DNA of 32,777 nucleotides from Bordetella sp. BOR01 (GTDB taxonomy: Bacteria > Pseudomonadota > Gammaproteobacteria > Burkholderiales > Burkholderiaceae_B): contig NZ_JAHUWT010000008.1 of assembly GCF_019218885.1 (NCBI RefSeq), positions 1 through 32,777 of the forward strand, written 5' to 3'. This document shows, piece by piece, positions 12,962 to 29,472 of this stretch (its first letter is position 1; the number at the start of each line of letters is the position of its first letter). The position numbers were made by a program, and so were the translations under genes. The notes beneath the pieces are model-generated. The model did not search any database. It saw only the letters and a list, made by a program, of their open reading frames with translations, and was not told the origin of the DNA.

Positions 12962-15319
12962 TCAGGCCGCCATTTCCAGCATCGAGAATATCTTCAGCAA
13001 GGCAGCCGGCACCGCGCGGGCCGTCAGTTTGCGCCCCTGCCCCAGCGCGCCGCGCAGGGACGATTCCAAAGCCGCGGCGCCGGGCGCGTGCGCCAATTGC
13101 CAGCACGCCGCCCCCAATTGAGCGGCCAGGGCCGCACGGCCGGCCAAGCCAGCCGCGCCGCCGTCGGCGGGCAAGGCCGGCCAGGCCTGCGCCATATCGC
13201 GAAACGTGCGGCGCGCCCGTTCCTGCAAGACCAGCCAGCGGGCCACCGCGGCCGCGTCGGCCTGGCTGGCCGACAGGCTGGTCAGGCCGAACAATTGCCG
13301 CAGCACCGTACCGTCGCTACTGGCTACCCGCGCGCACACCAAGCGCAGGGCCAAGGCCGGCGCGCCACGGCGCGGCACGCTGATCTCGGTGCCGGAAGCC
13401 CATAGGTCAAGCGCGGCGGCATCGGCCTGGCCTGTACGCAAAGCCGCGACCCCGGCGGGTGCGTCCAGCCTGCCGGCCGGCAGATAACCCAGCGCCTTGC
13501 CCACCGCGTTCAGTGTGGTCGGGCAGTCGTCATGCAATACCTTCGTACCCCCCGCGCAGCGGGCCAGCCAGGCCGTGCCGGCTGGCAACGCACGCCAGGG
13601 CGATTCGTCGTCGGGCTCCACCAGGTGCACCATCGGCACCTTCGGCATCCCCTCTGCCAATACGGCAGCCCGCTCGGCCAGCGTGCGGCCCGGCCCGGAC
13701 TGCGTCCAGGCCTGGGCGCTGGCCACCGCACGCTGCCGCAGCCTGCCGGCTACGGCGCCCAGCGCGGCCCCGCGATCGCTCAGCAACAGCGCCGCCTGCA
13801 GCAAGGTGCCCGAACGTGCCGCGCCATCCACCAAGGCTGTGCCATGCAATGCCAGCAGGTAGCGATCGCAGGCCGATGGGAAAGCGCGCTGTACACAGCC
13901 CAGGCCGGATACGGAAGATGCAGCCGGCACATGGCCGGCCATGCCGGCCTGACGCCAGGTCGCGCGTGCCTGGCCGCATGCGGGATCGCTATCCAGCCAC
14001 GCCAGGGCTTGCGGCAAGGACGGCGCGGCCGCCGCGCCGGCGGGTAACAACGCCGCCGCCAGCCATTGGCGCCGACGCTGCGCGCCGTCGTCCTGCGTGG
14101 CCGCGCGCGCGCGCCATAACGATGCCATGTCGGCCTCGCTGGGCGCATACAGCGCGGGCGCACGCTCCGGGGCGGCGAGTGCGCGGTCCACCAGCTCGTC
14201 GGCACGCGCCAGTGTCAAGTCTTCAGGAACTTTCTGGCCCACGCACACATAGTGCACTGGCAGCCGATGGCGTATGGCCGTGTCCAGCGCCGGCCCCAGG
14301 CGCGCAGCTTCGTCCAGCTTGGTAACGATGCAGCCCACCACGTCTTCGCCTGCGCCATGCCGGTAGGCGTGCGCCACTTCGTCCAGGGTGTCGCCCTGGC
14401 TGGCGGCGTTCAGCACCAGCAGGCGCCGCACCGGCCGGCCTGCGCCGCATAGCAGGGCCGCTTGCGCCGCCACATTGCGGTCGCGCTGGCTGATGCCGGT
14501 CGTGTCTATCAGCACGATCCGGCGGTCGCCCAACTCGGCCAGCGTCGCACGCAGTTCCGCCACATCGCGCACCGAGCGTGCCGGCACACCCATCAGGCGC
14601 CCATATATCTGCAATTGCTCCAGCGCGCCGATACGGAAATTGTCGGTGGTCAGCATGGCCACCTGGTCGCGGCCCACGCGCGCCACGCAACGCGCCGCCA
14701 GCTTGGCCAGCGTAGTGGTCTTGCCCACTCCGGTGGGACCCACCAGCGCATACACCCCGCCCTGGCCCCACAGCTCGTCTTCGCGGGCCAGCACCGGCAG
14801 GTGCGTGACCAGTTCGTTGCGCACCCATGACTGGGCCTCGCGTTCTGCCAGGGTGCCGGGCAGGCGTTCCAGCATCGCGCGTGCCAGGCGCGCGCTGAAC
14901 CCGGCGTCCAGCAGCAGGCGAAACAGCGCGGCGCGCAATGGCTCGCGCCCAGGTGCGTCGTTGCCTCCCCAGAGCAGGCCGTCCAGCCGGCTTTCCAATG
15001 CTCCGCGCAGGGCTCCGATGGCCGCTTCCAGGCCGGCCGCGCCCGCCTCCGGCTGCTCCGCAGGCGCCCATGCAGGCGGCTCATCGGGACGTGGCAAGGC
15101 AAGCGCTGGCGCGGATGCAGATATCGATGCTGGTTCCGGTGCCGGCCCGGGTACCGGCACCGGCACCGCATCGGCGGCCGGCTCGTCCAGCGTGGCCATC
15201 ACTTCCACCCCATCGGCCACGCTGCGATTGGACACGATCAGGGCATCCGGCCCCAGTGCCTCGCGCACCTGGCGCATCACCTCGCGGCTGGTGGCGCCGA
15301 TGAATCTGCTTATCTTCAT
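12962..15319 (-). CDS. flhF: FlhF, SRP-type flagellar GTPase with long C-terminal extension
   Basis: FlhF is a signal-recognition-particle-like GTPase that influences flagellar placement and gene expression. In this 785-residue protein the N-terminus (MKISRFIGATSREVMRQVRE) and the Pro/Ala-rich linker (45-95) are typical. The NG GTPase core spans about 120-390: P-loop GPTGVGKTT (194-202), TTDNFRIGALEQL (224-236), DTTG (272-275), TKLDE (333-337) and GQKVPEDL (361-368). All catalytic motifs are intact. Beyond about residue 400 lies an unusual extension of some 385 residues, rich in Ala/Leu/Arg, that I cannot assign. Well-studied FlhF proteins are roughly 370-500 aa. The gene overlaps flhA by 4 bp. 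No flhG (MinD-like partner) follows it; flgN is convergent instead. Confidence 0.95.
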   Translation of the reverse strand: MKISRFIGATSREVMRQVREALGPDALIVSNRSVADGVEVMATLDEPAADAVPVPVPGPAPEPASISASAPALALPRPDEPPAWAPAEQPEAGAAGLEAAIGALRGALESRLDGLLWGGNDAPGREPLRAALFRLLLDAGFSARLARAMLERLPGTLAEREAQSWVRNELVTHLPVLAREDELWGQGGVYALVGPTGVGKTTTLAKLAARCVARVGRDQVAMLTTDNFRIGALEQLQIYGRLMGVPARSVRDVAELRATLAELGDRRIVLIDTTGISQRDRNVAAQAALLCGAGRPVRRLLVLNAASQGDTLDEVAHAYRHGAGEDVVGCIVTKLDEAARLGPALDTAIRHRLPVHYVCVGQKVPEDLTLARADELVDRALAAPERAPALYAPSEADMASLWRARAATQDDGAQRRRQWLAAALLPAGAAAAPSLPQALAWLDSDPACGQARATWRQAGMAGHVPAASSVSGLGCVQRAFPSACDRYLLALHGTALVDGAARSGTLLQAALLLSDRGAALGAVAGRLRQRAVASAQAWTQSGPGRTLAERAAVLAEGMPKVPMVHLVEPDDESPWRALPAGTAWLARCAGGTKVLHDDCPTTLNAVGKALGYLPAGRLDAPAGVAALRTGQADAAALDLWASGTEISVPRRGAPALALRLVCARVASSDGTVLRQLFGLTSLSASQADAAAVARWLVLQERARRTFRDMAQAWPALPADGGAAGLAGRAALAAQLGAACWQLAHAPGAAALESSLRGALGQGRKLTARAVPAALLKIFSMLEMAA

Positions 15320-17462: not shown

Positions 17463-18602
17463 TCACTGGGCGCTGGCCAGGGGGTCCAGCTCGGCGGGCA
17501 CCGCCAGGCCGGTCGGCGCGGGTGGCTCGGCCCCCCACTCGGCCCGCCAGCTGCGCAGCTGGAACACCCAGGCCAGCACCTCGGCCACGGCCGTATACAG
17601 GGCCGCGGGAATCTCCTGGCCCAACTCGACATGCTCGTGCAGGGCCCGCGCCAGCGGTGGCGCCTGCAACAGCGGCACGCGGTGTTCGGCGGCCAGCTCG
17701 CGGATGCGGGCTGCCACCAGGCCAGTGCCCTTGGCCACCACCCGCGGTGCCGCCTGTCCATCGACGTAGCGCAACGCCACGGCATAGTGGGTGGGGTTGG
17801 TGACCACCACATCGGCCCGCGGCACCTCGGCCATCATGCGACGCCGTGCCATGGCGCGCTGCTGCTGACGTATGCGTGCCTTGATATGCGGGTCGCCTTC
17901 ACTTTCCTTGTGCTCCTGGCGTACGTCTTCCTTGGACATGCGCAGCTTCTTCAGGTGGTTCCAGATCTGCCAGGGCACGTCCAGCAGCACGATGATTGCC
18001 AGCGACGCCACGATCAGCGCAGCGCACAGCACCACCAGCCTCAAGGCGCGCACCAGCGCTTCGGTCGGCGCCGCGTGCATCAGGGCCAGCATGTCGTCGC
18101 GATGGCTGGCGATGACGGCCACCGCCACGCCGCCCACCAGCAACGCCTTGGCGATCGCCTTGACCAGTTCCACAACGGTTTGCGCCGACACCATGCGCTT
18201 CAAGCCGGAAAGCAGGCTCAGTTTCTTGAAATCTACCTGCAAGGGCTTGGACGAGAAGATGAACCCGCCCAGCAACACGCTGGCCAGCACCGCCACCGCC
18301 ATCAAGACACCGAAAATCGGCAGCACCAACAGCAACGCCTGGCTCGCGCCATCGACCGCCTGGGCCACCATGATGCCCGGGTCGCGCCCGATCCGCGCGT
18401 CGAAACCCAGCCCGTTGCGCAGCACGCCGGTCAAGCCGCGGTACAGCACCGAAGCGTTCAACCACAGCCCGCCCACGCCCGCTGCCAGCAGCAGGAAAGT
18501 GCCCAGTTCGCGCGAACGCGCGATCTGCCCCTCCTCGCGCGCCTTTTCCAGGCGCCTGGGAGAGGCGGCTTCGGTTTTCTCCAGATCGCTTTCGTCGGCC
18601 AT
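17463..18602 (-). CDS. flhB: FlhB, export gate and substrate-specificity switch
   Basis: FlhB regulates the switch from rod/hook to filament-type export. I choose the ATG at 18602 (379 aa) because MADESDLEKTEAASPRRLEK is the family N-terminus; a TTG at 18638 would add an atypical 12 residues. Four membrane segments fall in about residues 30-210. The cytoplasmic domain includes the autocleavage motif NPTH in VVVTNPTHYAVALRY. In the E. coli order flhB directly follows cheZ; here about 10.9 kb of unrelated genes separates them, so flhB must have its own promoter or use read-through from iclR. Confidence 0.97.
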   Translation of the reverse strand: MADESDLEKTEAASPRRLEKAREEGQIARSRELGTFLLLAAGVGGLWLNASVLYRGLTGVLRNGLGFDARIGRDPGIMVAQAVDGASQALLLVLPIFGVLMAVAVLASVLLGGFIFSSKPLQVDFKKLSLLSGLKRMVSAQTVVELVKAIAKALLVGGVAVAVIASHRDDMLALMHAAPTEALVRALRLVVLCAALIVASLAIIVLLDVPWQIWNHLKKLRMSKEDVRQEHKESEGDPHIKARIRQQQRAMARRRMMAEVPRADVVVTNPTHYAVALRYVDGQAAPRVVAKGTGLVAARIRELAAEHRVPLLQAPPLARALHEHVELGQEIPAALYTAVAEVLAWVFQLRSWRAEWGAEPPAPTGLAVPAELDPLASAQ

Positions 18603-18656
18603 GCTCGCGGTATCGTCCGCCGCCCGTGCGTCTTGCAAACAGGGCGGCCCGCCGAG

Positions 18657-18738: not shown

Positions 18739-19476
18739 CTAGGCGTTGCCGGCCAGCAGGCCGTTGAGCTTGTCCGCCGCCACCTGCAGCGGTGGCAATA
18801 ACCGCTGTATATCGAAACGGGTGGCCGGCATCACCAGCGACAATGCTGCCGCGCACTTGCCCTGGCGATTCATCACAGGAACCGCCAGGGCAAGAATGCC
18901 TGGGATTTCCAACCCGCTGGACACCGCATACCCCTGCGCGATGACATCGGACATGACTCCGGGGTCTGGCAACGTTGCGCCCTGATCCCGCAGATACTGC
19001 TGCACGGCCGAATCGGCGTAGGCGGACAAAATGCGCCCGGACGCACTGATTTCCAGCGAAAAAGTCGTACCGACATGCACATTGGCGCGCAACATTCCCT
19101 TGGCCTCGACGCGCTTGGCCAACACAACCTGCGTACCGGCGATCACCGCCAAAGACGCGGTCTCGCCGGAAGCGAAGACCAACTCTTCCAGTACTGCCGT
19201 GGCCCGCTCACCCAAGCTGGCCTGGTCAAACGCCGCCTCGCCCACCCGCGCCGCATGTAGCGTCAGGCGATAAGCACCGTCTTCGTCGGTTTCTACCCAA
19301 CCGGCCTCAATCAGGGTTACCAGGCGCTGGTAGACGGTAGCCCGGTTGCCGCCCTGTGCCGCAACCAGCTCGGCCAGCTTCAGCGGACGGTCGGACGCGC
19401 CGAGCAAATCCAGCACAGCCAGCGTCTTCAATACCGAACTCAGCGAACGGACGCCGCTGCCATTTCGCTCTGTCAT
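18739..19476 (-). CDS. IclR-family transcriptional regulator
   Basis: This is a 245-residue regulator with an N-terminal winged helix-turn-helix (about 10-70; SVLKTLAVLDLLGASDRPLK, then ELVAAQGGNRATVYQRLVTL) and a C-terminal effector domain (about 80-240; FSLEISASGRILSAYADSAV, then IPGILALAVPVMNRQGKCAA). It is divergent from the transport operon, with 213 bp between the two starts, which suggests control of that operon and of itself by a small metabolite taken up or processed by it. The gap contains tandem palindromes and a separate perfect inverted repeat. It is codirectional with flhB, 136 bp downstream. The ligand cannot be read from sequence. Confidence 0.93.
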   Translation of the reverse strand: MTERNGSGVRSLSSVLKTLAVLDLLGASDRPLKLAELVAAQGGNRATVYQRLVTLIEAGWVETDEDGAYRLTLHAARVGEAAFDQASLGERATAVLEELVFASGETASLAVIAGTQVVLAKRVEAKGMLRANVHVGTTFSLEISASGRILSAYADSAVQQYLRDQGATLPDPGVMSDVIAQGYAVSSGLEIPGILALAVPVMNRQGKCAAALSLVMPATRFDIQRLLPPLQVAADKLNGLLAGNA

Positions 19477-19507
19477 GGCCCTTCAAGCTTCCTTATATGG
19501 GGCGCCC

Positions 19508-19536
19508 ATCCTAAGGCATCGGATTTTGGCTGTAAA
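19508..19536 (-). promoter_or_regulatory. Sigma-70 type promoter of the IclR gene
   Basis: On the minus strand TTTACA (19531-19536) and TAGGAT (19508-19513) are separated by exactly 17 bp, matching five and four of six consensus bases. The predicted start is about 25 nt upstream of the ATG at 19476. The perfect inverted repeat at 19548-19567 lies just upstream of its -35. Confidence 0.6.
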
Positions 19537-19547
19537 CCCGAGCGATA

Positions 19548-19567
19548 AATCAGGGTTTTCCCTGATT
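19548..19567. promoter_or_regulatory. Perfect inverted repeat in the iclR-operon divergent gap
   Basis: AATCAGGG-TTTT-CCCTGATT is a perfect 8-bp inverted repeat with a 4-bp centre. It lies 11 bp upstream of the iclR -35 and about 30 bp upstream of the operon -35. It could be a second regulator site or the site of a different factor. It differs in sequence from the tandem TTCTATT sites. Confidence 0.5.
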
Positions 19568-19598
19568 AGGGATTTCCCGCGAACTGGGCGCGAGTTGA

Positions 19599-19627
19599 TT
19601 TACGACAAGGCGCGCTCCCGTTAGTAT
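19599..19627 (+). promoter_or_regulatory. Candidate promoter of the transport operon
   Basis: TTTACG (19599-19604) and TAGTAT (19622-19627) are separated by 17 bp, each matching four of six consensus bases. The -10 abuts the first of two tandem palindromes, so a bound repressor would block polymerase. The leader to the ATG at 19690 would be about 55 nt. This is a moderate match only. Confidence 0.4.
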
Positions 19628-19657
19628 TCTATTTGAATCTTTATGATTCTATTAGAA
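19626..19657. promoter_or_regulatory. Tandem palindromic operator, probably for the IclR regulator
   Basis: ATTCTATTTGAA (19626-19637) and ATTCTATTAGAA (19646-19657) are a near-identical direct repeat (11 of 12 bases) exactly 20 bp apart, two helical turns. Each copy is itself palindromic; the second contains the perfect TTCTA-T-TAGAA. This is the only strongly AT-rich spot in the gap and overlaps the predicted -10/+1 of the operon. IclR proteins commonly bind such repeated short palindromes as a dimer of dimers. Binding by the adjacent regulator is inferred. Confidence 0.6.
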
Positions 19658-19689
19658 GACATTCATTGGCAAGTGTTGAAAGGAAGTCC

Positions 19690-21384
19690 ATGACGATCGA
19701 ATCGTCCGCCGCCCCTGTCGCAGAACACCCCATGCAGTCGCACCGGCTGGCCATGTTGCAGCCCAGCCGCATGAGCGTCTCGCGGCTGTTCATGGCGCGC
19801 GCCATTCGGGAAAAATGGCGCATACGCCGCATTCGTTGGGAAATCGACGGCCACGCACGGGGCCAGGCCGTCTACCAGATCGATACGCCCACCATGGCGC
19901 TGAGTTTCGCCATCTACTCATTCGAACCCACCGCGCAAGGCAAGACCGGCCGCATCATCGGACGCTCCTGGGACATGATGGCTGCCTTGGTAGAAGGCTG
20001 CATATCAGAGCAGGACCTACAAACCACCGCGGTGGAACTACCCAAGCTCTACGAAGGACGCGCCACGCCGGGCACCCTGGTATGGGCGCGCGCGAATCGC
20101 AGTTCCCGGGTGTTCGACCACACGGTCGCATCGCTGGCCGAGGGCCGGCAGCCGGATATCGCCGAGCTGGCTCAGGTCTGCTACCTGATGCGCAACACTG
20201 GCCTGGACGGCAATGGCACCTTCGGCACCCGCAGCTACCGCACGCTGGAAGCCGACCACCCCCTGCACCGACCGCTTGACGCCCAAATGCTGTCGGCCTA
20301 CCTGATGCGCGTGTTCTCAATCGACCTGGTGCATCACCTGGCGCGCGAGCGCAATCCACAGGCACCCGAGATCGACCCGGCCATTCAACGCTACCTGGGA
20401 GTAGGCAACGGTTCCGCGCTGGGATTGATCCTTTTCGTGAACAACCACCCCCGGCTGATGCAGCAGTGGTTGGCGGCGCATCAGGCCGCGGTTGACACCG
20501 CCTGCTCGCTGGCGGCGAATCCGCGCGGCCCCGACGTCGCGCAATTGCAGCACTTGCTGGAGCGGGCCATCGCCTTTCGCCAACAAGACCGCATGGAATA
20601 CGAACGCTATGCCGACAGCGCCATGGTCGCCGACGAATTGCGCCGCCTGCGGGGGCGACTTGGCGAATATGCACAGGCTGGCACCTATGACGGCGCAGCT
20701 CCCAAGATTGCGCCGTTTGCCGCGCTGGTGGCCTGGGCCCGCCAAACCTTGCACGAGGAAACAGTGCAGACCTTTCTGGGGCTGCTGACCGAACTGGTTC
20801 CCGACCACTGCGACGCACAGGCCGAGTCACTGAGCGCCGACGAAGAATTCACGACAGTCCCCGACATGACTGTAGCGGAACTGCGCGGCCTGGTCGCCCG
20901 CGAATACGCCTGGACGCTGTCGCTGGATCTGGACAGCGAGGTCTCGCGCCGCTACGTCTGGTACAAGTCGGCCACCGCCGAAGAACCGCGCCGCGGCCCT
21001 GTCGCGGAAATCGAGTACGTCTACAACCTGGGCCTGGACCTGCCCAGGCTGGCCCGCGTCGTCCTGGCCGAACTGGAGCAGCGCCCCGCCGACGAAAGCA
21101 CAGCCCGCTTCCTGCTGCACCATCCGCAATATCGCATGATCGTGGCACGCATCCAGTCGTTGCGCGGGCTTGGGCTGCATTCGCCACACATGGACATCAT
21201 GAGCGAGGCCTTTGTTCCGGTGGACATCGTACGCCTGATGAATGTCGGCCTGCACGGCATCGACAAGGCGCGCGACTACCTGGGCCGCAATCTTCGTGGC
21301 GTGCTGTTTCACGGCGCGCCGATACCTGCCGATATCGAAGCGGGTGCCGACCCCACCTGGTTTTTCCCGAAGGAACCTGCATAA
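19690..21384 (+). CDS. Unrecognised 564-aa protein, first gene of the transport operon
   Basis: I do not recognise this protein and assign no function. The ATG at 19690 is chosen because AAGGAAG lies 6 nt upstream; an in-frame start at 19633 would lie inside the tandem operator. The protein is soluble: no signal peptide or membrane segment is seen. Conspicuous stretches are TPTMALSFAIYSFEPTAQGK (about 65-85), VCYLMRNTGLDGNGTFGTRS (about 165-185), RYLGVGNGSALGLILFVNNH (about 233-252) and HHPQYRMIVARIQSLRGLGL (about 490-510). Arg, His and Asp are frequent. The gene abuts the next one (TAA then ATG), so the two products are probably made in step and may form a complex. It could be a cytoplasmic enzyme acting on the imported compound. 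Confidence 0.85.
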   Translation: MTIESSAAPVAEHPMQSHRLAMLQPSRMSVSRLFMARAIREKWRIRRIRWEIDGHARGQAVYQIDTPTMALSFAIYSFEPTAQGKTGRIIGRSWDMMAALVEGCISEQDLQTTAVELPKLYEGRATPGTLVWARANRSSRVFDHTVASLAEGRQPDIAELAQVCYLMRNTGLDGNGTFGTRSYRTLEADHPLHRPLDAQMLSAYLMRVFSIDLVHHLARERNPQAPEIDPAIQRYLGVGNGSALGLILFVNNHPRLMQQWLAAHQAAVDTACSLAANPRGPDVAQLQHLLERAIAFRQQDRMEYERYADSAMVADELRRLRGRLGEYAQAGTYDGAAPKIAPFAALVAWARQTLHEETVQTFLGLLTELVPDHCDAQAESLSADEEFTTVPDMTVAELRGLVAREYAWTLSLDLDSEVSRRYVWYKSATAEEPRRGPVAEIEYVYNLGLDLPRLARVVLAELEQRPADESTARFLLHHPQYRMIVARIQSLRGLGLHSPHMDIMSEAFVPVDIVRLMNVGLHGIDKARDYLGRNLRGVLFHGAPIPADIEAGADPTWFFPKEPA

Positions 21385-22137
21385 ATGACTGCGCACACTC
21401 GCTCCGCACCACGCCAGCTTTGCTTATCCGTGCGCGAAGCCCGTCTCGTTGTAGAGCGCATTCTGCTGACCTGCGACGCTCCCGCAGGCTACGTGGCCGC
21501 AGTACGCGACACCGTTTTGGCCTCGCAAGGCCTGGGGCTGTCTGGCATGCATGGCCTGATCGCCGTGGCGGCTCGTGCGGCGTTGGCCGCCGACTTCAAG
21601 CGCATTATCGAAATGCATGAAGAGACCACGGCCGCAACATTCAACGGCGCGGGCTTGCATGCCTGGTGTGTCGTGCCCACCCTGGCCGACCTGCTTGTGG
21701 CCGACGCACGCAGTTCGCGCCGTACCAGCATGCGAGTCCGCAACGTGCGTGAGCCCGAAGAACTAGCGTGCGCCATACCGATCGCCGGGCGATACGGGGT
21801 GCGGCTGCGCTGCGATATCGATCCAGAAGGAGCCAACCTGCATGTATTGCGGATCGAGCCGCAACCAGACTCCTGGAAAGCTCGAGACCCGCTGCTGGCA
21901 CACAGCCTGCGGCACGGCTATGCCATGGCCGAAGATGCGTGGTGGAAGTTGTATGCGGCATCGAACAAGGCGCTCTCCCCTGATTCGATAACGTCCAGGC
22001 GCCACGCGGGCCCCACCATCGTGCAGGACGACGGCACCGTCATCGGCCGCGCCCCGGCCGACGACGATACCGATCTTGCCATGCTGCGCCGGTCGCAGGC
22101 CGCGGCGGAAGGCGTCGATTTTTCACTTGCACCCTGA
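21385..22137 (+). CDS. Uncharacterised 250-aa protein (possibly DUF3726-like)
   Basis: The function is unknown. The N-terminal region (LSVREARLVVERILLTCDAP to GLGLSGMHGLIAVAARAALA) recalls the opening helices of type-2 malate/lactate dehydrogenases and of the DUF3726 family; this is a recollection of pattern, not a match I can verify. The rest (about 65-250) has no nucleotide-binding motif I can identify. There is no signal peptide or membrane segment. The start codon directly follows the stop of the upstream gene, with an AAGGA sequence about 11 nt before it, suggesting translational coupling. Co-occurrence with an M19-like protein and an aminotransferase-like protein suggests a role in handling an amino-acid-like compound. 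Confidence 0.82.
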   Translation: MTAHTRSAPRQLCLSVREARLVVERILLTCDAPAGYVAAVRDTVLASQGLGLSGMHGLIAVAARAALAADFKRIIEMHEETTAATFNGAGLHAWCVVPTLADLLVADARSSRRTSMRVRNVREPEELACAIPIAGRYGVRLRCDIDPEGANLHVLRIEPQPDSWKARDPLLAHSLRHGYAMAEDAWWKLYAASNKALSPDSITSRRHAGPTIVQDDGTVIGRAPADDDTDLAMLRRSQAAAEGVDFSLAP

Positions 22138-22150
22138 TGGAACAATCAAC

Positions 22151-23119
22151 ATGATCATAGATGGTTTGCAGTGCGGCCATTTCGACCGCGACGTATTCGA
22201 GGCCCTGAAGCGCGGCAACGTAGGCGGCGTGACAGTGACGCTGGGTTTCTGGGAAGGCGCAGTACAGTCGCTCGAAGCCATAGACCGCTGGCGTACGCTG
22301 GCGCGAGACAACGCCGACCTGGTCGGCATTGCCCACAGCGCGGCCGAGATCGAAAATCTGGCAAGCCAACGCAAAGTAGCGTTGCTGCTGGGTTTTCAGA
22401 ACGCCAATCTGCTCGAAGGGCATATCGGCTTTGTCGAGCTGTATGCCGACCTGGGGGTGCGTGTCATCCAGCTGACCTACAACAACCAGAACGAGCTTGG
22501 CGGCAGTTGCTACGAAGCGCACGACTCTGGCCTGGCACGCTTCGGCAAGGAAGTAATCCGTGAAATGAACCGCTGCGGCGTGGTGGTCGACCTGTCGCAC
22601 GTGGGCAATCGAACGTCCCTGGATGCAATCCAGTATTCCGAAAAGCCCGTGGCGATCACGCACGCCAATCCGGACTCGGTGTATCCCCACAAGCGCAATA
22701 AGACCGACGATGTACTGCTCGCACTGCGCGAGAACGGCGGCATCATCGGATGTGCAGCCTACCGCAACATTGCGGGCGATGAGTATTGCACGACAGTCGA
22801 AAAATGGTGCGAACTGGTCGCTCGCACTGTCGATATCGCGGGCATCGACCATGTCGGTATCGGCACCGACCGCAGCCACAATACGACCCAGCGCGACCTG
22901 GATTGGATGCGCAAGGGCAACTGGACACGCGGCACCGACCTTGGCGCGGGTTCAGCCTCGCGGCCAGGTAAAGCGCCTCCGCCGGACTGGTTCACCAAGG
23001 TCGAGCATCTCGGCGAGGTCATTCCCGCACTGGCGCGCGTGGGCTTCAACGAAGAGGAAGTCGCGAAAATCACGCACTTGAACTGGCTGCGCGTCTATCG
23101 CGCCACGATGGGTGCCTGA
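22151..23119 (+). CDS. M19 (renal/membrane dipeptidase)-like protein with altered metal site
   Basis: This 322-residue TIM-barrel amidohydrolase-type protein belongs to peptidase family M19. Retained family features are VVDLSH (His150), AITHAN (His171) and DHVGIGTDRSH (Asp240). The usual N-terminal DGHxD metal motif is instead DGLQCGHFD (residues 4-12), so the expected His follows neither spacing nor position. The bridging Glu of VEGG is Gln83 in LLLGFQNAN. I recall a DGLQ-type subfamily in Pseudomonas betaine/sarcosine catabolism loci, so this may be a conserved variant and not decay. There is no signal peptide, so it is cytoplasmic. The ATG at 22151 is chosen by the conserved N-terminus; its Shine-Dalgarno sequence is weak. 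Classical dipeptidase activity is doubtful. Confidence 0.88.
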   Translation: MIIDGLQCGHFDRDVFEALKRGNVGGVTVTLGFWEGAVQSLEAIDRWRTLARDNADLVGIAHSAAEIENLASQRKVALLLGFQNANLLEGHIGFVELYADLGVRVIQLTYNNQNELGGSCYEAHDSGLARFGKEVIREMNRCGVVVDLSHVGNRTSLDAIQYSEKPVAITHANPDSVYPHKRNKTDDVLLALRENGGIIGCAAYRNIAGDEYCTTVEKWCELVARTVDIAGIDHVGIGTDRSHNTTQRDLDWMRKGNWTRGTDLGAGSASRPGKAPPPDWFTKVEHLGEVIPALARVGFNEEEVAKITHLNWLRVYRATMGA

Positions 23120-23120
23120 C

Positions 23121-24404
23121 ATGCCCGCCGCATCCGCCCAAGGCATTGGGCACTCGCGTGTCCAGGGCCAGCGGGCTTTGGCGGACGCCTCGATTGCCGC
23201 ATTGGGCGCACCGGTCGAGCGCGCGCTCAATGCAGAAGTCTGGACGACTGATGGCCGTCGCCATATCGATTTCTCCGCGAGCGCCGGCATCGTAGGGCAT
23301 CGGAACGAACAAGTAACGAGGTCAATAGCCGCCCGATTGGGCACCCCAGGCATCATCCAGGCGAGTCCGGCGCTCGATCCCGACGCCATCCGCCTGGCCG
23401 AACGGCTAACCATGCTGCACGTGGATCAAGCTGAGCGGCGCACGATGCTTTACGGATCCGACGCCGAAGCCATCGAAGGCGCCATAGTGTACGCGCGGCG
23501 CTATACCAGGCGCCCTATCTTGCTCGCCTTCTCGGGCGCCGCCCATGGGCACGGCAACCTGGGGGTGGCGCTGTCAGGGTTGGCCCACTGGGCCAAGGCG
23601 GCGGGTGGATCTTATCCGCCATTCATACACCATTTGCCATTCCCGCACGTGTCGCTCGGCGTCTCGCTGCATGAAACGCGGCGTGCCTTCGAACACTTGA
23701 CCCAATCCACGATCATGCCGTCCGACATCGCCGCAATCATCGTCGAGCCGATCCAGCGCGAGGGCGGCATACTGCCCTGCTCCGCCGAGCTGCTTGGATT
23801 CTTGCGAGCGACCTGCGATCAGCACGGTATTGTCCTGATCGCCGACGAAACCCGTACCGCACTCGGGCCCACGGGCCGCATGCTGGCCGCCGATCACTTC
23901 GCACCTGGGCCGGACCTGATCGTGATGGGCGGCGCCCTGGCCGCCGGCATGCCACTATCAGCCGTGGTCGGCGCGGCTGCCATCATGGGCAGTGCCCTTC
24001 ACGGCATGCCAATGCAAAATGGCGCTGTCAACACGCTGGCCCTGGCCGCTGCCCACGCCGTGCTCGACCTGGTACAGGAAGCCGGCCTTTGCGAACGCGC
24101 CGTAGCCCTGGGCCGGCACTGGACGGCCCGCATGAACAGCGTACGCCCGCCAGCGCGCCTGCTGCTGGATCTGCGCGGACTGGGCGCTTTGCGCGGTATC
24201 GAATTGCGCGATGCCGCAGGCGCGCCCGCTGCTGCCCAGGCCCGCACCATTTGCGACGACTGCCTGGCACACGGCCTTCTTCTTCACCCTGCCGGCCCCA
24301 AAGGCAACGTCATCCCTTTCCTGTTTCCGCTCACCATTGAACTGCCTGTGCTGGACGAGGCGCTGGGCATCTTCGCCGACGCCCTGCACCGGGTGATTCA
24401 CTGA
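23121..24404 (+). CDS. Class III aminotransferase-like protein lacking the PLP lysine
   Basis: The 427-residue protein has the GabT/glutamate-1-semialdehyde aminotransferase fold. Visible features are WTTDGRRHIDF (41-51), YGSDAEAIEG (111-120), AHGHG (141-145), AAIIVEPIQREGG (204-216), the pyridine-binding LIADETRT with Asp242 (239-246), and LIVMGGALAAGMPLSAVVG (266-284). In active family members the last segment reads like TFAKSLAGGFPLSAV; here the Schiff-base lysine position is Gly271, encoded GGC, at least two base changes from a lysine codon. The intersubunit phosphate-binding Thr (GTYAG in GabT) also seems replaced (PMQNG). It is therefore probably not a transaminase and may be a binding or structural protein. 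The ATG at 23121 follows the previous stop by one base. Confidence 0.88.
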   Translation: MPAASAQGIGHSRVQGQRALADASIAALGAPVERALNAEVWTTDGRRHIDFSASAGIVGHRNEQVTRSIAARLGTPGIIQASPALDPDAIRLAERLTMLHVDQAERRTMLYGSDAEAIEGAIVYARRYTRRPILLAFSGAAHGHGNLGVALSGLAHWAKAAGGSYPPFIHHLPFPHVSLGVSLHETRRAFEHLTQSTIMPSDIAAIIVEPIQREGGILPCSAELLGFLRATCDQHGIVLIADETRTALGPTGRMLAADHFAPGPDLIVMGGALAAGMPLSAVVGAAAIMGSALHGMPMQNGAVNTLALAAAHAVLDLVQEAGLCERAVALGRHWTARMNSVRPPARLLLDLRGLGALRGIELRDAAGAPAAAQARTICDDCLAHGLLLHPAGPKGNVIPFLFPLTIELPVLDEALGIFADALHRVIH

Positions 24405-24438
24405 ACTGGCCATCGGCCACATCACCACTGGAGCCGCA

Positions 24439-25503
24439 ATGAACTCTTCCACATTGAACTTCGCGCCCACGCGCAGAAGTCTCCTGAAAGGACTGGCCGC
24501 CAGCGCCGCGCTGTCAGCTCCGTGGATCGGGCGCCTGGCGAACGCCGCCGAGACGCTCTATGTGAATACCTGGGGCGGCACGTGGGAAACCGCAGCCGCC
24601 CGGCACCTGTTCGAACCGTTCCAGCAATCCAGCGGCACCACGATCCGCTCGGTGTCACCTGTTTCGTTTGCGAAACTCGCCGCCCAGGCGCGTACCGGCG
24701 TCTATGAATTCGACGTCACCACCCTGGGGGGAGCCGACCTGGTACGCGCCAACGAAGCGGGCCTTATCGAGGCTATCGACACCAGCATCCTGCAGCCAGA
24801 CGGCCTGGATGAAGGGCAGGTCTATCAGAATGGCGTCGGCTCGCACGCGTTCGCGACCGTTATCGCCTATCGAACCGATCGCTACCAGAATGGCGGTCCG
24901 TCCGACTGGAAGGCGTTCTTCGACTTGCAGCGGTTTCCCGGCCCACGCACTTTGCAGCGCCACGCACCCCGGGTCCTTCCGCTGGCCCTGCTGGCCGACG
25001 GAGTGCCGCTAGACCAACTGTACCCCGTCGATATCGAACGTTCTCTAAGGTCGCTCGACCGCATCAAGCCGTCGGTTCGTGTCTGGTGGACGCAAGGCCA
25101 GCAATCGCAGCAACTGTTGCGTGACGGCGAGGTGGACGCCGCCGCCATATGGCATGGCCGCGTGGTAGAGCTGATGCGCCAGAAGCAACCCGTTCGGCTG
25201 GAATGGAACCAGGGCCAAGTAGACCGGGCCTATTGGGTGGTGTCCAAGGGTTCGCCTCGCGCCAAGCTGGCGTGGCAGTTCATCAATGCGTCCGTACGCG
25301 GCGAGCGCCTGGCCGGCTTTTGCCGCCAGGCCGACTACGGCCCGCTGAATCGGAAGGCGTTCGAATACATCCCCGAGGAAGACGCACGCATGATGCCGAC
25401 CCAGCCCGACAACTACAAACTGCTGTTCGAACAAAACGTGGAAGAACTCGCACCGCAGCTCAACGATATTGCACGCCAGTTCGACCGCTGGGTCGTGCGC
25501 TGA
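24439..25503 (+). CDS. Tat-exported ABC transporter substrate-binding protein (PotD/PotF-like)
   Basis: This is the periplasmic binding protein of a polyamine/opine/iron-type ABC importer, 354 residues. The N-terminus carries a twin-arginine signal (TRRSLLKG, Arg12-Arg13), with cleavage likely after ANA (about residue 36). The mature protein begins ETLYVNTWGGTWETAAA, typical of the PotD-like family 1 spermidine/putrescine-binding proteins, and IWHGRVVELMRQKQPVRLEW is the usual hinge region. Tat export implies folding before export, sometimes seen when a ligand or cofactor is loaded in the cytoplasm. It starts 34 bp after the aminotransferase-like gene with a GGAG sequence. The substrate is not determinable; polyamine, opine or betaine-like compounds are all plausible. 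Confidence 0.93.
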   Translation: MNSSTLNFAPTRRSLLKGLAASAALSAPWIGRLANAAETLYVNTWGGTWETAAARHLFEPFQQSSGTTIRSVSPVSFAKLAAQARTGVYEFDVTTLGGADLVRANEAGLIEAIDTSILQPDGLDEGQVYQNGVGSHAFATVIAYRTDRYQNGGPSDWKAFFDLQRFPGPRTLQRHAPRVLPLALLADGVPLDQLYPVDIERSLRSLDRIKPSVRVWWTQGQQSQQLLRDGEVDAAAIWHGRVVELMRQKQPVRLEWNQGQVDRAYWVVSKGSPRAKLAWQFINASVRGERLAGFCRQADYGPLNRKAFEYIPEEDARMMPTQPDNYKLLFEQNVEELAPQLNDIARQFDRWVVR

Positions 25504-25528
25504 ACACGGCAATTCATCGGATCAAAGA

Positions 25529-26377
25529 ATGAGCGCTATTTCTTCGCACAATCCACGCCGGTGGCGCAGCCTGTTGCTGCTGGCACCCGTGGTCATCTTC
25601 CTGCTCGCATTCTTCGTGGTTCCCCTGTTCCAGGTCTTGCTGCTCAGTGTCAGCGATCCGGGCTGGAGCCTCGAACATTACTACTACCTGTTCTCCGACG
25701 GCTTCTTTATCGGTGTGCTTTCCAGCACCTTCCTGACAGCACTGGGCGTCACCCTTGTCTGCCTGGCGCTGGGGTATCCCCTGGCGTACACGGTGGTGCG
25801 GCTCGGTGGCGGTTTCGCCAAATCGGCGCTCGTGCTGGTGGGTCTGAGCCTGTGGGTCAGCTTCCTGGTGCGCACCTACGCGTGGATGGTGATACTGGGA
25901 AATCGCGGGCCCATTGTGGCGCTGCTCGACCGCCTGGGCCTGGGCAATGGGGAACTGCTCTTTACGCGTTTCAGTTCGACGCTGGGCATGGTGCACGCGC
26001 TATTGCCGTTGATGGTGATGACGCTCTACTCCGTCATGCGCAAGATCGACCCCGCCTATATTCGTGCGGCGCGCGGCCTGGGCGCCAGCAGCTGGGCGGC
26101 CTTCCGTCATGTATTCTTGCCGCTCAGCGCGCCCGCCATCGTCAACGGCTGCACCCTGGTGTTCATTACCTGCCTGGGCTTCTATGTCATGCCCGTACTA
26201 CTGGGCGGACCGGGCGAGCAAATGCTCGCCGGCCTGATCGGGCAGCAGATCGAAGAACTGCTGAACTTCGGCGAGGCCGCCGCGATGTCCGTGGTGCTGC
26301 TCGTCGCGTCCCTATCGGTATACGCTGTCTACAACCATGCCTTCGGCATCGACAAGCTGTGGGGAGAACCGCGATGA
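25529..26377 (+). CDS. ABC transporter permease (PotB/PotH-like)
   Basis: This 282-residue inner-membrane permease has about six transmembrane segments: the first at 14-40, then LSSTFLTALGVTLVCLALGY, LVGLSLWVSFLVRTYAWMVI and others. The cytoplasmic EAA coupling loop is YIRAARGLGASSWAAFRHVF with LPL (about 178-200). The family is the PotB/PotH half of polyamine-type importers. The ATG at 25529 was chosen because the first hydrophobic segment then follows a short basic N-terminus; an upstream in-frame start adds residues that overlap the binding-protein gene. The stop overlaps the start of the second permease (ATGA). Confidence 0.93.
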   Translation: MSAISSHNPRRWRSLLLLAPVVIFLLAFFVVPLFQVLLLSVSDPGWSLEHYYYLFSDGFFIGVLSSTFLTALGVTLVCLALGYPLAYTVVRLGGGFAKSALVLVGLSLWVSFLVRTYAWMVILGNRGPIVALLDRLGLGNGELLFTRFSSTLGMVHALLPLMVMTLYSVMRKIDPAYIRAARGLGASSWAAFRHVFLPLSAPAIVNGCTLVFITCLGFYVMPVLLGGPGEQMLAGLIGQQIEELLNFGEAAAMSVVLLVASLSVYAVYNHAFGIDKLWGEPR

Positions 26378-27204
26378 AAGCGCTGCGATGGTTCTCTATC
26401 TTGATCGTTGCCTTTGTAACCGCGCCAATGTTCATCGTGGTGCCGATGTCGTTCAGCCATTCGCAATCGTTCGAATTTCCGCCGCCAGGTTATTGGCTTG
26501 GATACTACGAGGCGTACTTCTCCGATCCTCGCTGGACGCTTCCTACCTTGAACAGCCTGCTGATCGGCCTGGGCACGGCACTACTGACCATGATGCTGGT
26601 CGTGCCCGCCACCTTCGCCCTGACGCGCGACAACTTCCGCGGCAAAAGCGTACTGAACCTGTTGCTTATTCTGCCACTGACCGTGCCGCACATCGTGGTC
26701 GCCCTGGGCTACTACTACTATTTCGGCGAGCTTGGACTGATTCAGAGCCGCCTGGGCGTAATACTGGCGCATACCTGCCTCAGCGTACCGGTGGTTTACC
26801 TGATCGTATCGGCCACGCTCAAGGGCTTCGACCAGAATCTTGAACGTGCTGCCCAGAATCTCGGGGCGTCGCCCATGAAGGCCTTCTTCCTGGTCACGTT
26901 TCCAGTATTGAGACCGGGCTTCCTGGCCGCCGCACTGTTCGCATTCGTGCATTCGTTCGACGAGGCCGTGGTGTCGCTGTTCATATCGGGGCGCGACGCC
27001 GCCACCCTGCCGCGCCAGATGTTCGACAGCTTGCGCATGCAGGCCGATCCCATCATCTCGGTCGTCTCCACGCTGATTCTTATGGCCATGATTCTGGCGC
27101 TGGCAGCCCCGCGCGCTTTGCGCTGCATTCGGTCAACCCAACGCCCTTCGAAAGAAACGCAAACGTCGCCTCTGCCCGGCGGCCGTCTGGAGAACCCATG
27201 CTGA
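26374..27204 (+). CDS. ABC transporter permease (PotC/PotI-like)
   Basis: This is the second inner-membrane permease, 276 residues with about six transmembrane segments (first about 7-28). The EAA loop is LERAAQNLGASPMKAFFLVT with FPVLRPG (about 156-182), interacting with the ATPase. It starts within the stop of the first permease (ATGA), with GGGGAG upstream, and its end overlaps the ATPase gene by 7 bp. The C-terminal tail (RSTQRPSKETQTSPLPGG) is hydrophilic. The two permeases should form the heterodimeric channel. Confidence 0.93.
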   Translation: MKALRWFSILIVAFVTAPMFIVVPMSFSHSQSFEFPPPGYWLGYYEAYFSDPRWTLPTLNSLLIGLGTALLTMMLVVPATFALTRDNFRGKSVLNLLLILPLTVPHIVVALGYYYYFGELGLIQSRLGVILAHTCLSVPVVYLIVSATLKGFDQNLERAAQNLGASPMKAFFLVTFPVLRPGFLAAALFAFVHSFDEAVVSLFISGRDAATLPRQMFDSLRMQADPIISVVSTLILMAMILALAAPRALRCIRSTQRPSKETQTSPLPGGRLENPC

Positions 27205-28313
27205 ACGCCTCTATTTCCCACCAGAATGGCGAGCTCGACGAGCACCTGCACATCGAAGCGCTGCAAAAAACCTACGACGGCCGGCATAACGCCGTTGATG
27301 GCGTCAGCCTGACGTTGCGCCAAGGCGAGTTCGTCACATTCCTGGGGCCCAGCGGCTCCGGAAAAACCTCGACCCTGGCCATGGTGGCCGGGTTCGAGGC
27401 GCCTACCGCGGGCGAGATCCGGCTGCGCGGTACTGCGCTGACGGGCGTCCCGCCGCACAAGCGCAATATGGGCATGGTGTTCCAGAACTATGCGCTGTTT
27501 CCGCACATGAGCGCGGTCGAGAATGTCATTTTTCCATTGCGCATGCGCAAGGTGACCGCGGCTGACGCGGCCGCGCGCGCGCGTCGCGTGCTGGACATCG
27601 TCGGCTTGGCTCAGCATCGCGATCGCCTGCCCAAGCAGCTTTCAGGGGGCCAGCAGCAACGGGTCGCCTTGGCGCGAGCGCTGGTGTTCGAACCCGAAGT
27701 ATTGTTGCTGGACGAGCCCTTGAGCGCACTCGACAAGAATCTGCGAGAACAGATGCAGCTTGAAATCAAACGGCTGCATACCGAGTTCGGCATCACCAGT
27801 ATTTTTGTCACCCACGATCAATCCGAAGCCATGACGATGTCAGACCGCATCGCTGTCTTCAATGCCGGCCGAGTAGAGCAATTCGCGCCGCCCATGCAGG
27901 TATATGCCGCGCCCGCCACTCACTTCGTGGGGTCTTTCGTAGGCGAAAGCAATTTTTTCGGCGTCCGGCGCCTTGACCCGGCGCGGGGAGAATACGCCTG
28001 CGATTCGTTGGGCCGCACCTTGCGCGCGCACTCAGCCTCGGACCATGCCGCCGGCAAAGACGCATACATGATGGTCCGGCCCGAATCCTTGCGCCTGCTG
28101 GAGCAGGCCGATTCGGCCGAGCAAGACAACGTGCTGGACTTCCAGATCACCGGCGTTGTCGACTACGGCGCGAGTCTCTTGCTCAGCGGCCTGAGCGGCG
28201 AGGTGCCCGTACGCATACGCGTGCCCGGCGCGCGCGCAAGAGCGCTGGCGAACGGATCGCGGCATCGTATTGCCTGGAACGCGGGAGACGCGCACATCGT
28301 GCCTCGCATCTAG
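27198..28313 (+). CDS. ABC transporter ATP-binding protein (PotA-like)
   Basis: This is the cytoplasmic ATPase of the importer, 371 residues. All motifs are intact: Walker A GPSGSGKT (50-57), Q-loop Gln96 in MVFQNYALFPH, signature LSGGQQQR (148-155), Walker B VLLLDEP (168-174), D-loop SALD and H-loop His206 in FVTHDQSEAM. The C-terminal TOBE-type regulatory domain covers about 240-371 (YMMVRPESLRLL). The ATG at 27198 has GGAG about 7 nt upstream and overlaps the permease gene by 7 bp, so it belongs to the same transcript. Binding protein, both permeases and ATPase are all present, so the importer is complete. Confidence 0.96.
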   Translation: MLNASISHQNGELDEHLHIEALQKTYDGRHNAVDGVSLTLRQGEFVTFLGPSGSGKTSTLAMVAGFEAPTAGEIRLRGTALTGVPPHKRNMGMVFQNYALFPHMSAVENVIFPLRMRKVTAADAAARARRVLDIVGLAQHRDRLPKQLSGGQQQRVALARALVFEPEVLLLDEPLSALDKNLREQMQLEIKRLHTEFGITSIFVTHDQSEAMTMSDRIAVFNAGRVEQFAPPMQVYAAPATHFVGSFVGESNFFGVRRLDPARGEYACDSLGRTLRAHSASDHAAGKDAYMMVRPESLRLLEQADSAEQDNVLDFQITGVVDYGASLLLSGLSGEVPVRIRVPGARARALANGSRHRIAWNAGDAHIVPRI

Positions 28314-28321
28314 GTCACCAA

Positions 28322-28337
28322 TCGCCAGATCTGGCGA
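28322..28337. promoter_or_regulatory. 16-bp perfect palindrome before the porin gene
   Basis: TCGCCAGATCTGGCGA is a perfect palindrome 8 bp after the ATPase stop and 49 bp before the porin start. As RNA it folds into a 6-bp stem with a GAUC loop; as DNA it is dyad-symmetric enough to be an operator. A second short repeat GGTGC...GCACC (28345-28367) follows. It may separate porin expression from the transporter genes. Confidence 0.5.
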
Positions 28338-28386
28338 AATTCCGGGTGCCGGCGTGGTGCCAGCACCTCGATCCAAGGGGAAACCA

Positions 28387-29472
28387 GTGAAAACAAGCAC
28401 ATGGTTGCGCTTCGGCGCATCCGTCTGCCTGGCGGGCGCGGCTGCGCCTGCTCTGGCGGACAATGTCACACTGTATGGCGTGGTGGATTCCTACATCGGG
28501 GCCATCAATAGCAGTGGCCGCACCGAGAAATCCGTGGATAGCGGCGGACTGCAGGTCTCGCGCTTCGGCCTGATGGGAAGCGAGGATCTTGGCGGCGGAA
28601 CTCGGGCAGTATTCCGCCTGGAAGGTGGCTTCAACACCAACAACGGCAACGCTTCCGTAGCCGGCCAGATGTTCGGCCGGCAGGCCTGGGTGGGTTTCGC
28701 CAATAACGACTGGGGCGAATTCCGCATCGGCAAGCAAAACAGCGTCTTCTTCAATATGCTGGGCAAGATCGCCGCATTCTATGGCGGCACCTTTGGCGCG
28801 GGGCTGGGTACCCAGTCCGGCTACAACTTTCGCAATAACAACGACATCAGCTATAGCTCGCCACGCTGGCATGGCTGGCGCCTGGAAACGCACTATGCGC
28901 TGGGCGACAGCTACCGTCACAGCCAAGCCGGCCGAGTCTGGCAGGCGGCAATCGAATACCAGAACGGGCCCTACTACTTCCTGGCCGCCCACGTGGACAA
29001 TACGCTGCCCGGCGCCACCGACGACCTGTATGACGGCACCCGCAACCGTCAAACCGCGATCGGGGGCAGCTACGACTTCGATCCGGTCACCGTATACCTG
29101 GGCTACTTCAAGAACGAGCAGACCGACGGCAGCATCGACAAGGACCTGTATTCGATCAGCGTTGCGTTCGATCTTACCGCGGCCGACCAACTAAGCCTGG
29201 GCTGGACGTACATCGACGTCAAAGCCGACAACGCCAACACCGATCCTTCAACCTTCGGCGGATCGTCACACGCCAATCACTACGGCATCATGTACCTGCA
29301 CCGCTTGTCCAAACGCACCACGCTCTATGCGGCGGGCGCATGGATCGACAATGGCGAAGGGCTGCGCTATGCAATCGGAGCCGCGCAGGCGCCCAGCGCC
29401 GACTGGCGCAACCGCCCTCTGGCCGGAGACGCGACCCGGGGGGTGCAATTCGGTATACGCCACGTGTTCTAG
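28387..29472 (+). CDS. Outer-membrane trimeric porin (beta-proteobacterial type)
   Basis: This is an outer-membrane diffusion channel, 361 residues from a GTG at 28387, chosen because AAGGGG lies about 8 nt upstream and the resulting N-terminus is a textbook signal peptide (KTSTWLRFGASVCLAGAAAPALA, cleaved before DNVTLYGVVD). The mature start NVTLYGVVDSYIGA and the segments SRFGLMGSEDLGGGTRAVFR and AWVGFANNDWGEFRIGKQNS are hallmarks of the neisserial/Bordetella porin family. The protein ends in an aromatic residue (IRHVF), as needed for barrel assembly. It follows the ABC genes by 73 bp in the same direction and likely provides outer-membrane entry for the same substrate. It is convergent with cheZ. 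Confidence 0.95.
   Translation: MKTSTWLRFGASVCLAGAAAPALADNVTLYGVVDSYIGAINSSGRTEKSVDSGGLQVSRFGLMGSEDLGGGTRAVFRLEGGFNTNNGNASVAGQMFGRQAWVGFANNDWGEFRIGKQNSVFFNMLGKIAAFYGGTFGAGLGTQSGYNFRNNNDISYSSPRWHGWRLETHYALGDSYRHSQAGRVWQAAIEYQNGPYYFLAAHVDNTLPGATDDLYDGTRNRQTAIGGSYDFDPVTVYLGYFKNEQTDGSIDKDLYSISVAFDLTAADQLSLGWTYIDVKADNANTDPSTFGGSSHANHYGIMYLHRLSKRTTLYAAGAWIDNGEGLRYAIGAAQAPSADWRNRPLAGDATRGVQFGIRHVF

Follow-up and report, generated by a model that had tools for sequence, protein, structure and literature searches.

The cheZ and flhB genes of Bordetella sp. BOR01 are separated by an inserted block of genes, probably a catabolic operon that was acquired horizontally and is induced by its substrate. That substrate would be a small zwitterionic amine, either a betaine or an amino acid of cyclic or N-methyl type. 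The window, the 32,777-nucleotide stretch analysed, is one whole contig (NZ_JAHUWT010000008.1). Within it, the gap from flhB to cheZ spans 10,903 bp and holds ten genes, counting an IclR-family regulator. The original prediction described a self-contained insert with its own regulator, two orphan proteins, two enzyme-fold proteins with altered catalytic residues, a complete importer, and a porin; each of these elements was found, as were the gap and its flanks:

17463-18638, minus strand: flhB (Pfam Bac_export_2), one bound of the gap
18739-19476, minus strand: IclR-family regulator, divergent from the operon (IclR_C, 1.9e-22; HTH_IclR, 3.3e-12)
19477-19689, no strand: intergenic control region with two operator-like imperfect inverted repeats (19624-19639 and 19645-19660)
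19690-21384, plus strand: OrfA, a 564-residue orphan and the family marker (no Pfam or NCBIfam match)
21385-22137, plus strand: OrfB, a 250-residue orphan (weak Ldh_2 similarity in relatives)
22151-23119, plus strand: M19-dipeptidase-like protein without the HxD and Glu metal ligands (Peptidase_M19, 3.8e-75)
23112-24404, plus strand: class-III aminotransferase-like protein with Gly274 in place of the lysine that binds pyridoxal phosphate (PLP) (Aminotran_3, 4.4e-61)
24439-25503, plus strand: periplasmic solute-binding protein, with a twin-arginine-like leader judged by eye (SBP_bac_8, 2.1e-29)
25529-26377, plus strand: ATP-binding cassette (ABC) permease 1, PotB-like (BPD_transp_1)
26374-27204, plus strand: ABC permease 2, PotC-like (BPD_transp_1)
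27198-28313, plus strand: ABC ATPase, PotA/UgpC-like (Pfam and NCBIfam)
28387-29472, plus strand: outer-membrane porin (Porin_4, 2.3e-48), in the equivalent position in loci L016 and L027
29542-30174, minus strand: cheZ, the other bound of the gap

Inspection by eye moved the start of OrfA from 19633 to 19690 and also refined those of the M19-like protein, the two permeases, and the porin.

The block is an insertion: empty cheZ-flhB sites, and sites filled by a gene for a methyl-accepting chemotaxis protein (MCP), occur in relatives of the same genus. The genus set comprised nine genomes, the window's included; cheZ was matched in eight, and one gave no cheZ match. In four of the nine (G156, G171, G053, and G015) cheZ lies 106-202 bp from flhB, in two (G123 and G141) an MCP gene intervenes, and in two (G000 and G081) the block does. 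The MCP genes (L091 16719-18251; L093 2304-3875) mark the gap as a variable slot. Among 61 genomes sampled from the family, 46 contain cheZ; the survey returned 30 of these loci, 29 besides the window. In 19 of the 29, flhB follows cheZ on the same strand within 1 kb; the other 10 show no flhB match within about 1.5 kb of cheZ. Adjacency is common in the family, not universal. These genus and family counts argue against an ancestral order that always contained the block.

The region upstream of flhB is retained at the left junction. The junctions have no word in common longer than a GC-rich one of 9 bp and show no target-site duplication, and no transposase or integrase appears among the ten module genes and the flanking proteins scanned; the block thus lacks these hallmarks of a transposon or integrative element. 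The insert had also been thought slightly less GC-rich. This was borne out by measurement (62.6%, against 66.1% and 64.9% in the flanks; 0.76 against 0.83 at third codon positions), but the signal is weak: both values fall inside the range of 117 mechanically picked open reading frames of the genome, and codon usage gives no strong foreign signature.

The block also recurs. Counting the window's own genome throughout, 13 of the 250 genomes of the family, 2 of the 9 of the genus, and 29 of the 398 of the phylum contain an OrfA match, as do 168 plasmid records, of which 10 were opened; every plasmid match is below 60% identity. The closest among the matches listed is in Bordetella genomosp. 2 (84% identical). 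A genome of another Alcaligenaceae genus, G009, carries all ten genes plus one for a thiamine pyrophosphate (TPP) enzyme, about 0.8 Mb from its own cheZ and flhB, which are 110 bp apart. Recurrence of the block away from flagellar genes, which the original prediction had named as support for a mobile functional unit, is thereby supported.

An OrfA tree of 50 loci (L102 and L026 were left out as near-copies of L100 and L025) contains one clade of 18, window included, with support 1.0. IclR, OrfA, OrfB, and the M19-like protein are present in 18 of 18, with IclR adjoining OrfA each time, in a set picked by OrfA similarity that includes several close relatives, five of them near-alike Pigmentiphaga-type loci. 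The window block has this same arrangement, and the core co-occurs well beyond it. Transport varies: a POPT-type ABC importer is present in 11 loci and a tripartite-tricarboxylate binding protein in six, and one locus, on a short contig, shows neither. Neighbours in some loci include a TPP enzyme (four), RidA (four), a protein like succinate-semialdehyde dehydrogenase (SSADH; three, plus one weak match), a GabT-like aminotransferase bearing the lysine (two), and another lysine-bearing aminotransferase (two). The TPP enzyme accompanying the module in four genomes is of PRK07586 type (L027 5227-6783; L106 7296-8843; L108 17782-19332; and L071). The omitted L102 comes from a record titled pSymA of Sinorhizobium meliloti Ak57 but matches pSymB in size and in its module; its label may have been swapped.

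Two enzyme-fold proteins have lost catalytic groups. In the aminotransferase-like protein the PLP-binding lysine of active class-III enzymes is Gly in the window, Gly in L016, and Asp in L027, so that it is missing from all three modules that carry the protein. The lysine is kept by all 28 nearest paralogue loci listed among the 250 family genomes, by the GabT-like genes at L071 and L106, and by a GabT of the window's own genome. The dN/dS ratios are 0.27 against L016 and 0.44 against L027, where synonymous sites are near saturation; those of OrfB are 0.26 and 0.24, and those of the remaining module genes 0.05-0.13 and 0.08-0.19, respectively. (A porin value of 0.50 against L016, at 89% identity, was inconsistent and was dropped.) By these ratios, the aminotransferase-like protein evolves fast yet is still constrained by purifying selection. 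As judged from sequence, an aminotransferase-like protein of this kind without its catalytic lysine is new here.

The M19-like protein has Leu6 and Cys8 at the HxD positions and Gln83 at the Glu position, and so lacks these ligands of a binuclear zinc site; the two His and the Asp are kept (His150, His171, and Asp240). We take the ligand names from renal dipeptidase. This pattern of loss and retention is common to 15 of 15 aligned rows.

Neither OrfA nor OrfB has a match in Pfam or NCBIfam at E<=1e-3, and OrfA has none in the PDB at E<=10 (phmmer). The predicted OrfA model is poor and has no clear structural match; the VIA/Foldseek hits, mostly fumarase-superfamily helical bundles, were insignificant in score and were not used, and P450 profile matches (E 0.16 and worse) were taken as noise. 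More can be said of the partnership. DUF3726 occupies the OrfB position in the second OrfA clade; a Mesorhizobium coding sequence fuses OrfA and DUF3726; a 954-residue frame in G043 combines OrfA with a part that weakly resembles Ldh_2; and the Natrinema OrfA neighbour has Ldh_2 similarity at its start (4.8e-9, under the curated cut-off) and resembles OrfB at its end (1e-5). These joined frames and the Natrinema neighbour point to OrfB as a partner of OrfA and a shortened Ldh_2 relative, which profile comparison did not confirm. (Long frames in L079 and L088 that resembled fusions turned out to be upstream start overruns.) Outright assignment of OrfB to Ldh_2 was rejected: relatives score 4.8e-9 (L104), 0.0052 (L032), 0.0054 (L101), and 0.096 (L100); OrfB of L106, L108, and the window gave no Ldh_2 match; the best relative, L104, reaches 36.2 bits against a cut-off of 38.8; and profile comparison by hhalign gave a probability of 0.4%. 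No publication naming OrfA turned up in the literature searched on homarine, DUF3726, SMb locus tags, PA5396, and S. meliloti transport. The pair is unnamed and new here.

The second OrfA clade has different company. From the 32 other tree loci, L032 (in the Pigmentiphaga-type genome G043) and L104 (in the archaeon Natrinema) stand apart; inner branches among the remaining 30 are in part weakly supported (down to 0.03). Near OrfA in these 30, within stretches of up to about 22 kb (tblastn, E<=1e-8), are M19-like genes (28), aldehyde dehydrogenase (21), BCCT transporters (16), DUF3726 (16), and Ldh_2 (9). The fullest arrangement reads LysR, aldehyde dehydrogenase, M19-like, BCCT, OrfA, DUF3726, Ldh_2. 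In Ruegeria TM1040 and a Phaeobacter this operon stands beside genes resembling four-subunit sarcosine oxidase; in L152 (9010-16010) and L109 it adjoins four such subunit genes, together with a gene for a GbdR-like regulator of the AraC family. A haloarchaeal plasmid of Natrinema versiforme (L104 10070-12600) has an OrfA relative with an Ldh_2-like partner and a BCCT transporter. The window block has no LysR, aldehyde dehydrogenase, BCCT, or Ldh_2, and its OrfA belongs to the other clade; identity between the clades is about 28-36%.

The binding protein is nearest, among solved structures, to the 4-aminobutyrate (GABA) sensor 6dgv, then 9d57, 4i1d, and 4eq7, followed by agropine and mannopine binders; we take 4eq7/4euo to be a GABA binder. 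The two inverted repeats before orfA are conserved in the window, L016, and L027. A promoter scan found no sigma-70-like site on the plus strand before orfA, and no excess over shuffled sequences.

These observations point to a substrate class from two sides. In the IclR clade, the SSADH-like, GabT-like, PuuR-like, TPP-enzyme, and RidA neighbours found at some loci indicate a route through GABA and succinate semialdehyde; in the second clade, BCCT and sarcosine-oxidase-like neighbours indicate betaines and N-methyl amino acids. Two papers bear on the latter: PMC13390433 reports a role for Mgd in the catabolism of homarine, with reference to a paper in Nature Microbiology of 2026; and PMC12093977 describes a dimethylglycine gene cluster containing a predicted dipeptidase gene, a member of the M19-like subfamily. 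Taken together, the neighbours of both clades and these papers favour a system that imports a small zwitterionic amine and breaks it down. The original prediction is partly supported: the module is self-contained, regulated, and inserted, and it recurs as a block in G009 and as a core in all 18 clade loci.

Beyond the observed gene content, insertion, conservation of the block, and residue losses, we infer a substrate class, an order of reactions, and repression. The porin would pass a small zwitterion with a carboxylate and an amine; the binding protein of the GABA/opine group would catch it, and the ABC transporter import it. OrfA with OrfB, probably as one complex, and the M19-like protein would carry out the committed steps. 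The product would enter the GABA/succinate-semialdehyde route through enzymes encoded elsewhere; the genome has an SSADH relative (54% identical) and a lysine-bearing GabT. IclR would repress from the operators before orfA until the substrate or an intermediate binds. The aminotransferase-like protein would no longer be an ordinary PLP transaminase: it may be a relic, or have a new role. The block entered the cheZ-flhB gap, the slot that an MCP gene fills in relatives. Trigonelline is disfavoured as substrate, since the module of S. meliloti 1021 is on pSymB, not pSymA; in PMC4207669, growth on trigonelline is seen with the wild type only, not with the delta-pSymA strain. A second pathway is possible.

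Two rival readings are less probable. A homarine (N-methylpicolinate) pathway, or one close to it, with committed steps as in the second clade, would fit that clade's fullest gene set, its sarcosine-oxidase-type neighbours, and the part played by Mgd; we think it unlikely for the window, where the aldehyde dehydrogenase, Ldh_2, and BCCT genes are missing and OrfA is so divergent. The second-clade operon itself may be the homarine operon reported in 2026, which is a lead only. This qualifies the claim that the system is undescribed: its genes are unnamed in the records examined, but that operon may already have been reported. Hydrolysis by the M19-like protein of an imported amide or lactam containing GABA, with GABA passing to GabT and GabD, would suit a binding protein closest to a GABA sensor. 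It would also suit the neighbours of the module in L106, and partly in L071, which are GabT-like, SSADH-like, and PuuR-like (the last below the curated cut-off). It is improbable in its turn, for it asks hydrolysis of a protein without half its metal ligands, leaves OrfA and OrfB without a role, and sits poorly with the betaine transporters that accompany second-clade OrfA.

That the altered folds serve as ligand-binding regulators of uptake or motility, for sensing in place of catabolism, is very doubtful. Three proteins do look changed, and the site is beside chemotaxis genes; yet other modules lie at other locations, active enzymes accompany the core elsewhere, and the M19-like change is old, being common to all 15 rows. 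The proposed link between nutrient status and motility is unsupported and was rejected. Once the window, Bordetella genomosp. 2, and G009, the third genome with the block, are set aside, 15 IclR-type loci were tabulated, and no flhB or cheZ match was seen beside the module in any of them. The locations of these modules, the distance of about 0.8 Mb in G009, and the empty or MCP-filled slot speak against it, and placement in a motility locus looks accidental.

More speculatively, OrfA and OrfB might form a new bipartite enzyme acting on N-heterocyclic or betaine compounds, by opening or demethylating them, together with repurposed M19, aminotransferase, and shortened Ldh_2 scaffolds. If so, this operon would run on the scaffolds of enzymes without their usual catalytic groups. 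The module gives a context ready for functional work to an unnamed family, which occurs in genomes of alpha-, beta-, and gammaproteobacteria-like type and on one haloarchaeal plasmid, and it connects terrestrial with marine betaine-type catabolism. The aminotransferase relative, lysine-less yet constrained, provides a natural setting in which to test enzyme loss against re-use.

Around the insert, Pfam identified flhA, a protein with an SRP54 GTPase domain at the flhF position, cheY, cheB, and cheR; beyond cheR, at the contig end, an MCP-like C-terminus (NAALVEEAAAAAG) was recognized by eye. GC content peaks locally at 73% within the SRP54-GTPase gene (13001-14000). In G141 the flhA match is split in two, about 1.2 kb apart (L093 5153-8549).

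Comparison with known systems sets the block apart from each of its relatives. POPT-type GABA/opine ABC importers (6dgv, 4eq7, and 6hly) share the binding protein, two permeases, and PotA-like ATPase; the window operon differs in its context with OrfA and OrfB. The aminotransferase-like protein shares the full-length class-III fold of PuuE/GabT 4-aminobutyrate aminotransferase (7jh3; E 8.6e-74), but has Gly where the catalytic Lys stands. The nearest solved relative of the M19-like protein is the family M19 amidohydrolase 2i5g, homologous over its full length (E 4.7e-58), which we take to be the Pseudomonas aeruginosa protein of the dimethylglycine gene cluster; unlike peptidase family M19, the window protein has no HxD or Glu ligands, as in 2i5g at the aligned start. 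The S. meliloti pSymB locus (L100) resembles the window in IclR, OrfA, OrfB, M19-like protein, and POPT-type ABC importer, in the same order; it then departs with a lysine-bearing aminotransferase of another subfamily, SSADH, and two RidA genes, and has no porin. The homarine operon of 2026, reportedly called homABCDER, offers candidate likenesses in OrfA, the DUF3726/OrfB position, and the M19-like protein; the window block differs in carrying IclR, a porin, and an importer of the ABC type, and in having no aldehyde dehydrogenase, Ldh_2, or BCCT.

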